From assembly GCA_025362585.1 (NCBI GenBank), contig JANYFR010000018.1, forward strand, positions 38,895 through 102,894: a DNA stretch of 64,000 nt. Direction: 5' to 3'. The DNA comes from Acidimicrobiales bacterium (GTDB taxonomy: Bacteria > Actinomycetota > Acidimicrobiia > Acidimicrobiales > RAAP-2). Made by a program: the position numbers and the translations under genes. The notes beneath the pieces were generated by a model. It was given only the letters and a program-made list of their open reading frames with translations, had not been told where the DNA came from and ran no database searches. The number at the start of each line of letters is the position of its first letter. Positions within the stretch are counted from its first letter, which is position 1. Positions 32,655-38,612 of this stretch are shown in pieces.

Positions 32655-33578
32655 TTAACTCGGATTCGAAATCGCTATATAGAGTCGTTCAAGGTCATCC
32701 AGATCCGCAAAGTCAATGATTATGCGACCATTTCGGCCCTTTAAGTCCACGTGGACCCTGGTATCGAGATAGTCCTCCAGGAGATGTTCCAACTCGGCCA
32801 CACTGGCGTCGGGGACGGGGCGCAGCCGGGGAGCACCACTCTCGGGCTTCGTCGATGGTTCAATATCAACGATTGGCTTGGGCTCGATGAACGTCTTCAC
32901 CGCGTCTTCCGTCGCACGAACGGAGAGTTCGTTCTTGATCACCCGGGCAACCATTGTTGACTGGGCGTTGGGGTCCGTGATGGCGAGCAGGGACCGGGCG
33001 TGGCCCGCCGTAATCTGGGACGACGCAAGCGCCGCTTGTGCCGTCTCCCCCAATTGAAGAAGTCGTAACGTGTTCGTAACATTTGCTCTACTCTTGCCAA
33101 CGCGCTGCGCCACCTGTTCATGCGTCAGATCAAACTCGTCGATGAGCTGCTGATACGCGGCGGCCTCCTCCAGGGAGTGCAGATCGACGCGATGCAGGTT
33201 TTCCACGACGGCCTGTTCAAGCGACAGCCGATCATTGACGTCTAACTGGACCAGGACCGGCACGAATTCTAACTCCGCAATTATTGCGGCGCGCCAGCGA
33301 CGCTCTCCCGCGATAAGTTCGAACTGATCAATTTCGCCCTCAATCGGTCGAACGATGATGGGTTGAAGTACTCCCAACTCTTTCACGGACGAGGCGAGCG
33401 TCTTTAGACTATCGTCATTGAAGTCTTTTCGCGGCTGAAACTGATTGGGGCGAATTGACGCGACGGGCACTCGCCGCAGCGGACCCTCGGTGGGTGGCGC
33501 AACGTGGTGCTCCGCTGATTCCTCGCCATCGGGGATCAGGGCACCGAGGCCCTTGCCTAAACCTGGTTTTCTAGCCAT
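32655..33578 (-). CDS. parB: Chromosome-partitioning protein ParB
   Basis: A 307-residue CTP-dependent DNA clamp that loads at parS and slides outward to recruit SMC and ParA. After a basic start (ARKPGLGKGLGALIPDG, the ParA-stimulating tip) come the N-terminal CTP-binding domain (QPRKDFNDDSLKTLASSVKELGVLQPIIVRP; box II GERRWRAA), the HTH (THEQVAQRVGKSRANVTNTLRLLQL) and a C-terminal dimerisation domain. The start overlaps parA by 8 bp. Four parS sites lie just upstream of parA. Confidence 0.97.
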   Translation of the reverse strand: MARKPGLGKGLGALIPDGEESAEHHVAPPTEGPLRRVPVASIRPNQFQPRKDFNDDSLKTLASSVKELGVLQPIIVRPIEGEIDQFELIAGERRWRAAIIAELEFVPVLVQLDVNDRLSLEQAVVENLHRVDLHSLEEAAAYQQLIDEFDLTHEQVAQRVGKSRANVTNTLRLLQLGETAQAALASSQITAGHARSLLAITDPNAQSTMVARVIKNELSVRATEDAVKTFIEPKPIVDIEPSTKPESGAPRLRPVPDASVAELEHLLEDYLDTRVHVDLKGRNGRIIIDFADLDDLERLYIAISNPS

Positions 33579-34344
33579 TCATGATCTCCTCTGCTAGTGC
33601 GCGATACGCCTTCGCCCCCTTGGACGACGGATCGAAAACGGTGATGGGCTGTCCAAACGAGGGCGCTTCAGCGAGGCGCACCGTGCGGGGAATGACTGTA
33701 CGACACAGTTCGTTCTCGAAGTGACGCCCTACCTCTTTGGCCACATCCCCCGAAAGAGTGATTCGCGAGTCGTACATCGTCAAAACGACTTTGGTTATCC
33801 GGAGGGTTGGATTCAGGTTCTTCTGCACCAGGTCAACAATTCGCTGAAGTTGGTTCAGGCCCTCGAGAGCGTAGAACTCAGTCTGGACTGGCACCATGAT
33901 TTCCGTCGCGGCGGCGAACGCGTTAATGGTGATGAGACCGAGGGATGGGGGGCAGTCAATGAAGACGTAGTCGAAATCGCCCTCTACTGAAGCTAACGCT
34001 TTCTTCAATCTCAGTTCGCGGGAGATTACGGAGGTTAATTCCTGCTCCACGCCGGCCAGGTCGAGGGTGGCCGGCGCTACAAAAAGGTTGCTATAACCCG
34101 TCGGCTCAACAATATCGACCATTGGCACGTCATTGAGCAGCACGTCGTAGACCGATCGCTCAAACTGGCGTCCATCAACGCCAAGACCGGTTGTCGCATT
34201 ACCCTGGGGATCGAGGTCCACAATCAACACGCGCTTACCCTGTTCGGCCAATGCGGCTCCCAAAGAGGTAGTGGTTGTGGTCTTTCCTACGCCGCCCTTT
34301 TGATTGGCGACAGCGAAAATCCTCATCAAGCTGGCGTCCGCCAT
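33571..34344 (-). CDS. parA: Chromosome-partitioning ATPase ParA
   Basis: A 257-residue deviant-Walker ATPase: KGGVGKTTTTTSLGAALAEQGKRVLIVDLDPQGNATTGLG at the N-terminus and FIDCPPSLGLITINAF as switch II. ATP-bound dimers coat the nucleoid, and ParB-parS complexes move along the gradient. AAAGAGG precedes the ATG at 34344, favouring it over the internal ATG six codons later. There is no long N-terminal extension. Operon with parB. Confidence 0.97.
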   Translation of the reverse strand: MADASLMRIFAVANQKGGVGKTTTTTSLGAALAEQGKRVLIVDLDPQGNATTGLGVDGRQFERSVYDVLLNDVPMVDIVEPTGYSNLFVAPATLDLAGVEQELTSVISRELRLKKALASVEGDFDYVFIDCPPSLGLITINAFAAATEIMVPVQTEFYALEGLNQLQRIVDLVQKNLNPTLRITKVVLTMYDSRITLSGDVAKEVGRHFENELCRTVIPRTVRLAEAPSFGQPITVFDPSSKGAKAYRALAEEIMNG

Positions 34345-34431
34345 GAGCCTCTTTCCGACCTAATCGTGGTTACCGACACTTCGTCGAACTCTGCTATTCA
34401 ACTCGGTTTTCGCCGAGCCGTCAAGTATCAG

Positions 34432-34447
34432 TGTTTCACGTGAAACA
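34432..34447. promoter_or_regulatory. parS: parS site 1
   Basis: TGTTTCACGTGAAACA, a perfect match to the bacterial parS consensus bound by ParB. It is 85 bp upstream of the parA start, so it may also serve parA autoregulation. Confidence 0.97.
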
Positions 34448-34556
34448 TTGTTGCTGGCCGATCTTCATTGATTCCCCAATTGGACCCAGAGTATTCCCCA
34501 TTCTTTCAAGGCTTTCGGTGGATCGCGCGGCGGATACATTCGAGACACCCAAAGAG

Positions 34557-34572
34557 TGTTTCACGTGAAACA
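34557..34572. promoter_or_regulatory. parS: parS site 2
   Basis: Perfect 16-bp parS palindrome, 125 bp after site 1 and exactly 298 bp before site 3. Confidence 0.97.
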
Positions 34573-34780
34573 TTTTTCGTGGGAGTACCGACCGCGCCAC
34601 TTGTTATTTTTCGTCTCCCCAACCTGCTTGAGCTCCAACCGACTCTTCGATGCACGGATGGCCTTCAATCAGTTGACCGTCACGTACAGCGTCTGTTGTA
34701 GCATCGCCCAATTGAATACAAGGGGCGTCGAGACCTGTGTGGCGCCGATCAATCTATCCGGTCGTACCCCAAGGCAATCT

Positions 34781-34828
34781 CGCCAGAATAACTTTCACCC
34801 GCCGAACCACGATGTCTCTTGCGGGCCA
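34781..34828 (+). repeat. Direct repeat copy A, ahead of parS site 3
   Basis: A 48-bp block beginning CGCCAGAATAACTTTCACCC and ending in GCGGGCCA. It recurs with only a few changes at 35079-35126. Both copies end 26 bp before a parS site. Confidence 0.85.
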
Positions 34829-34854
34829 CCCGGAACTTCCGCAGCTCAACGCAA

Positions 34855-34870
34855 TGTTTCACGTGAAACA
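34855..34870. promoter_or_regulatory. parS: parS site 3
   Basis: Perfect 16-bp parS palindrome, exactly 298 bp after site 2 and 298 bp before site 4. Confidence 0.97.
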
Positions 34871-35078
34871 ATTCTCACGGTCACTGATGGAAGATGCTTT
34901 TGAGGTGATGGCGGTGGCCCGCAGAAAACCTTCCGATACTTGCATCCAGCCGCCGATGCCCCGGTCGGCTGATATCGATGAATCGACCTCATTATCGCCC
35001 AATCCCAGTGGATCACAGCCGGCGCCGAGATTGGAGTGTCTTCGACAAACCGGTACGGTCTCAGCCCGGAGGAGTTCG

Positions 35079-35126
35079 CGCCAGAGTAACTTTCACCCGC
35101 CGAACCGCGATGTCTGATGCGGGCAA
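35079..35126 (+). repeat. Direct repeat copy B, ahead of parS site 4
   Basis: A 48-bp block beginning CGCCAGAGTAACTTTCACCC, 298 bp from copy A and in the same position relative to parS. Block and parS together look like the best-kept part of an old tandem duplication. Confidence 0.85.
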
Positions 35127-35152
35127 TCTGAAAACTTGAGTTGACTCCTCAA

Positions 35153-35168
35153 TGTTTCACGTGAAACA
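35153..35168. promoter_or_regulatory. parS: parS site 4
   Basis: Perfect 16-bp parS palindrome, exactly 298 bp after site 3; about 95 bp beyond the rsmG stop. Confidence 0.97.
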
Positions 35169-35263: not shown

Positions 35264-35887
35264 TTAGAACAGGGGCCGTTTTCGTGGAACACCGATGCCG
35301 CGAGGAAACTCCGGCATCGTTGCATGCGACTTCTGCAGAACCTGAAACGAAGCCCCGTGGCGAACGCGACCTAAATCCCGGAGCCCCAATATCTTCAGAC
35401 CCTTGGCTGGCCATCGTCCAGTCTCCGAGTCATTCGGGGGTTCGGAGATGACCATTACTCCCCCAACTTTCAAGAAACGAACCCCGCATTCGGCGGTGAC
35501 CGACGGGGGGCCGAACGATCGCGCAGAAACGAGATCAAAGATTCCGTCTAGTTGCTGATTTCGTGCAATCTCTTCCGCCCGACCAATCATGACCACGCCA
35601 CCCTCTGGTGCGTCGTTCCACTCCATGACTTCGACGAGAAATTTTGCTCGCTTCATCATTGAATCAGTGAAGACTGCTCGGTTCCGCCATCGCTCAAGTA
35701 GTACGAGTCCAGGAAGACCGCCGCCGCTTCCTAGATCGAGGAACGAGGCCGGGGGAGTGGGCGACAGTTCCTGCCAGCATTGCGCGAACCCATCTGCATG
35801 GGCAATTTGAGGCTCGATGGGACCCGGCCCTAAATAGCCCCGCGCCCTCGATTCATCGAGGGCGCGGTTCAACCAGTCAGTACTCAC
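35264..35887 (-). CDS. rsmG: 16S rRNA G527 N7-methyltransferase RsmG
   Basis: A 207-residue SAM-dependent methyltransferase (GidB) that modifies G527 in the 530 loop of 16S rRNA; loss gives low-level streptomycin resistance in known species. The SAM motif is FLDLGSGGGLPGLVL, followed by the FTDSMMKRAKFL acidic loop and DLVSARSFGPPSVTAECGVRFLKVGG. It ends close to parS site 4 and is the last gene of the rpmH-to-rsmG operon. Confidence 0.94.
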   Translation of the reverse strand: MSTDWLNRALDESRARGYLGPGPIEPQIAHADGFAQCWQELSPTPPASFLDLGSGGGLPGLVLLERWRNRAVFTDSMMKRAKFLVEVMEWNDAPEGGVVMIGRAEEIARNQQLDGIFDLVSARSFGPPSVTAECGVRFLKVGGVMVISEPPNDSETGRWPAKGLKILGLRDLGRVRHGASFQVLQKSHATMPEFPRGIGVPRKRPLF

Positions 35888-38429: not shown

Positions 38430-38603
38430 AACATCCTCTTCTCAAACTGATTTCATGCGCTTCGCGGTACCCCCGAGGGGTCGCTGGCGCGCTGCTGTGA
38501 GCAATCTTACCCGATGGTCATTGGTCCCTCTGCGGGACCAGAGAATTAGGTGTATGGTGGCACTCCCCAGAGGCATCTCGATGTGAATGAACGGCGCGAG
38601 GCC

Positions 38604-38612
38604 TGTGGATAA
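38604..38612 (-). promoter_or_regulatory. Perfect DnaA box in the dnaA leader
   Basis: TGTGGATAA on the plus strand is the complement of TTATCCACA. It lies 28 bp before the dnaA GTG start chosen here and would allow DnaA to repress its own gene. The ORF-track start at 38587 would put this box inside the coding sequence. Confidence 0.85.

Follow-up and report, generated by a model that had tools for sequence, protein, structure and literature searches.

Exact 298-bp spacing of parS sites in the origin region of an uncultured actinobacterium probably derives from tandem duplication

The four parS sites near dnaA in an uncultured actinobacterium most likely make up a chromosomal ParABS centromere of the ordinary kind with several parS, and do not represent a new spacing code. 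The last three sites are exactly 298 bp apart and a 48-bp block is repeated at the same offset, both features being probably accounted for by one tandem duplication of the interval between two parS sites.

The parS cluster and its genetic context

The window, a stretch of 64,000 nucleotides, is the origin region of an uncultured, peatland-type actinobacterium (Acidimicrobiaceae-type), whose near relatives are metagenome-assembled genomes (MAGs) labelled mostly Acidimicrobiaceae or Actinomycetes, many of them of bog and palsa origin. Genes rsmG, parA and parB are on the minus strand, with dnaA and dnaN beyond them on the plus strand; the parS sites are about 3.4-4.2 kb away from the dnaA start at 38587, and a perfect DnaA box is present at 38604. 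As in chromosomal ParABS systems, parA is adjacent to a parB whose product has, by Pfam, the ParB_N, HTH and C-terminal dimerisation domains, and the genes lie close to the origin, as marked by dnaA and dnaN.

The parA-rsmG intergenic region, 919 bp in length, holds all four parS, each a perfect copy of TGTTTCACGTGAAACA, at spacings of 125, 298 and 298 bp (Table 1). A chance origin of the four sites is ruled out, since no further parS was found at ≤2 mismatches elsewhere in the 2.09-Mb genome. The sequence-only reading had described four identical 16-bp palindromes at these places, an exact 298-bp distance between the last three, a 48-bp block recurring at the 298-bp offset and strong divergence of the sequence in between, and our measurements agree with it on each of these points.

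Table 1. Coordinates of the features in and around the parA-rsmG intergenic region
Feature	Position	Strand	Remarks
parB	32655..33578	-	Pfam ParB_N, HTH_ParB, ParB_C; GERRWRA motif in translation
parA	33571..34344	-	Pfam AAA_31; ORF; 8-bp overlap with parB start
Probable parA promoter	34396..34424	-	TTGACG-N17-TTGAAT; conserved in the genus
parS1	34432..34447		Perfect palindrome; 7 bp upstream of parA -35 hexamer
parS2	34557..34572		Close to genus-wide second position, ~130 bp from parS1
Interval I (282 bp)	34573..34854		Probable first copy of duplicated parS-to-parS spacer
48-bp block, copy 1	34781..34828		43/48 identical to copy 2
parS3	34855..34870		Perfect site
Interval I' (282 bp)	34871..35152		Probable second copy of duplicated spacer
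48-bp block, copy 2	35079..35126		Same 298-bp offset as copy 1
parS4	35153..35168		95 bp from rsmG stop
rsmG (gidB)	35264..35887	-	Pfam GidB

Comparison of the two 298-bp intervals

Autocorrelation of the intergenic region peaked at lag 298 (z 4.6, versus 2.4 for the runner-up), where the block forms part of a direct repeat at the exact parS-parS lag, its similarity extending to 69 nt (34767-34835) with 55/69 positions identical to the copy. The block occurs at the equivalent place in both intervals, has no counterpart at the corresponding position before parS2 and no third copy found in the genome, and contrasts sharply with its flanks, where 10/26 positions are identical (Fisher 6e-6). With block and parS excluded, the ungapped identity of I and I' was 48/194, or 24.7% (background 25.2 +/- 3.2%). 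Gapped alignment of the rest of the intervals gave a weak similarity (p 0.0025-0.0075 against dinucleotide shuffles), the score being equalled by only 6 and 5 of 1733 unrelated windows from the genus; because ungapped identity outside the block equals background, whole-interval homology rests on a p of about 0.003, and the gapped resemblance may be taken as a sign of it that is suggestive only. The intervals were not significantly similar to L163, the nearest of the complete relatives. An inversion between the palindromic parS was also considered as a cause of equal length with lost sequence, and no convincing inverted similarity was observed.

The block has no better-than-chance match in 98 congeners (best E 0.04 over 17 bp), and in 86 intergenic regions its best match was 26 of 42, compared with 25 for a reversed control. 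Exact 20-mers of its core are absent from 85,462 GTDB species genomes and from viral contigs, collections from which the genome itself and near-identical ones may have been omitted. No credible match suggested a dispersed, phage or plasmid element; it folded no better than shuffled controls, with no Rfam match to indicate an RNA or hairpin, and promoter and terminator signals were absent. As for coding capacity, the two A/G changes leave the translation of two frames unaltered, but the differing sites are too few, and one of these two frames contains a stop.

parS number and spacing in related genomes

We surveyed the region upstream of parA in 87 loci, of which 76 extend in full to rsmG, and counted parS in the relatives at ≤2 mismatches. 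For the closest relative, L162 (97% ParA identity), the comparison covers the 394 bp upstream of parA up to the contig end, beyond which a 298-bp period may be shared. The intergenic region varied from 129 to 2546 bp and contained 2-8 parS. Among the sampled loci the parS spacings took 154 distinct values, the smallest 27 bp and the largest 1051 bp, and showed no helical phase (Rayleigh p 0.28-0.96). The survey indicates that the number and spacing of parS turn over fast within one actinobacterial genus. In 15 of the 87 loci, that of the window included, there were direct repeats whose lag equalled a parS-parS distance or differed from one by no more than 6 bp, a figure that counts loci rather than independent events in genomes sampled unevenly across the tree. 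Segments bearing parS are therefore often duplicated in tandem in the genus, with repeat units of 80, 89, 111, 118/471, 153, 167-176, 184, 191, 230, 263, 274, 298, 404-426 and 631/740 bp. For example, L184 has spacings of 89/89 with copies identical at 70/73 positions, L169 has eight parS about 118 bp apart, and L235 (intergenic 247-799) has a 184-bp two-parS unit repeated head to tail with 337/352 identity. The parS gaps of L235 (119/65/119/65/119/65) form a clean, recent array.

Variation of other kinds was also seen. L222 contains a short tandem repeat of 8-bp period between or beyond parS (intergenic 756-825), and in L189, L192, L193, L196 and L239 the parA-rsmG region is 1.9-2.5 kb long and contains six parS, two of which keep a distance of 234-236 bp. 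All three parS of L234 and L237 are TGTTCCACGTGGAACA, while mixed variants occur in other genomes (also L227, L228 and L220); this looks like a concerted change of parS in L234 and L237, perhaps along with ParB specificity.

Amid this turnover, two parS positions are often maintained, one beside the parA promoter and the other where rsmG ends; the combination amounts to a natural experiment on the requirements of a ParB centromere. The first parS lies 85-88 bp from the parA start in 61/86 loci. An alignment of 72 leaders showed both hexamers of the probable parA promoter, a pair missed by a simple promoter scan, to be ≥95% conserved at most positions. In the window (34396-34447) and in relatives L162-L241, parS1 appears locked 7 bp upstream of these promoter-like hexamers; because of this position beside a conserved promoter, ParB probably influences parA expression there. 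At the other side, 47 of the 76 complete loci, such as L164, L169 and L175, have their last parS directly against the rsmG stop codon (0-1 bp); it lies 95 bp from this stop in the window, where it is displaced, and 106 bp from it in L163.

When the members of 11 closely related species pairs were compared, the spacers separating parS were 43-88% identical with a length difference of 0-1 bp, and the dnaA-dnaN gap behaved similarly in 10 of the 11. In a compact three-site form, likewise, the gaps stay at 36-40 and 91-98 bp from clade to clade, with spacers that are scarcely alignable. Slow indels and selection on length would fit these data alike. Since spacers in the genus diverge mostly without net change in length, an exact 298-bp distance with lost sequence is unremarkable. 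The same anatomy was seen in L188 (intergenic 210-637), where an exact period of 153/153 accompanies a patch of about 60 bp beside parS at ~95-100% identity, the middle of the first interval having ~10-25% identity yet equal length. The patch is unrelated in sequence to the block in the window, and L188 is an independent parallel.

Origin of the equal spacing

These data are probably best explained by a change from A-I-B to A-I-B-I'-B', in which the parS-to-parS interval would have been duplicated together with the far parS, the simplest routes being slippage or unequal exchange involving a pair of identical 16-bp sites. A single duplication of this kind, which we consider the probable event, would therefore leave both 298-bp gaps equal and the blocks at the same offset. 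Afterwards, selection would hold parS exact, and the spacers would erode mainly by substitution with little net change in length; the 48-bp block would be a leftover patch, locally re-copied between the repeats or weakly constrained in this lineage. ParB, a CTP-dependent clamp by homology, would load at each parS and spread, ParA would then move the complex, and the additional parS would provide loading redundancy. Counting against this account, the contrast between block and flanks is not explained by uniform neutral drift, and the homogenisation of the block that we infer has a single parallel, L188. Local homogenisation between tandem copies nevertheless seems likelier than an accessory-factor site or lineage-specific constraint. 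We doubt strongly that the block is a lineage-specific, still selected site of a protein acting beside parS, such as a ParB roadblock or a factor for SMC loading, and that its fixed 26-bp distance from parS matters.

A shorter copy, limited to about 105 bp and comprising the block, a parS and the 26-bp spacer that separates them, would require the parS2-parS3 gap to equal the next one by chance. It is in keeping with ungapped homology being detectable only in ~34767-34872 and its copy, and across the 87 loci two adjacent gaps of ≥150 bp would be equal by chance at least once with a probability of ~0.10; for this single genome, however, the coincidence is estimated from the spacing pool at ~1%, and the faint gapped similarity of I and I' favours a copy of the full interval, so that we regard the shorter copy as rather unlikely. 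The sequence-only reading had proposed that the unit was probably duplicated and then kept only at parS, the block and the spacing, with the 298-bp distance or the block being functional, for example in ParB clamp loading or for an accessory factor. Its duplication half is supported by the 15 loci with repeats near their parS spacing. The functional half can appeal to the far better conservation of the block than of its flanks, and to the fact that nothing else is alike but parS, block and spacing. Against it are the wide range of spacings without helical phase and the failure to match the block in congeners or its core exactly in GTDB genomes or viral contigs. The block also has no third copy, belongs to no RNA family, and lacks both a stable fold and any signal of a promoter or terminator. 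In addition, the portions of the literature available describe one parS as sufficient for segregation in Corynebacterium glutamicum, which has ten over 35 kb (PMC7083940), and any single one of four as sufficient in Pseudomonas aeruginosa (PMC4368675); the same portions, and those of a paper describing ParB as CTP clamps that slide off parS (PMC8494293), state no requirement for a fixed inter-parS distance. The relatives, in which spacing is variable and, among those searched, the block occurs in none, thus speak mostly against a function of distance or block, which we consider improbable. The fallback offered by the sequence-only reading, a merely recent duplication, does not fit copies that are old and sequence-saturated.

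An assembly artefact deserves mention because the assembly is split into 64 contigs and the congeneric genomes are MAGs. The copies differ at many positions and so do not represent a collapsed or doubled repeat, the region is deep within a contig of >100 kb with normal gene order, and similar arrays are present in many independently assembled relatives, which makes this explanation hardly credible.

Comparison with known centromeres

The cluster shares with the chromosomal ParABS systems of C. glutamicum and P. aeruginosa the B. subtilis-type 16-bp palindrome, the ParA and ParB families, clustering near dnaA and redundant sites. It differs from that of C. glutamicum, with sites across 35 kb, in that all parS of the window are within 737 bp of one intergenic region, and from both in being, as we interpret it, partly made by tandem duplication. 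The arrays of the congeners L184, L188, L169 and L235 are at the same locus and likewise show tandem duplications at the parS spacing, L188 also sharing the eroded middle and kept patch, but their unit lengths and sequences are unrelated to those of the window, and most are recent and near-identical, whereas the window copies are saturated apart from the 48 bp.

Plasmid-type centromeres such as sopC of the F plasmid consist of many short identical tandem repeats with a fixed period. ParB-type sites at a regular period are common to sopC and the window, but the window has two eroded copies and belongs to a genus without any fixed period. However striking, an exact period does not by itself imply a distance rule in a bacterial centromere, since it can be the fossil of a tandem duplication.
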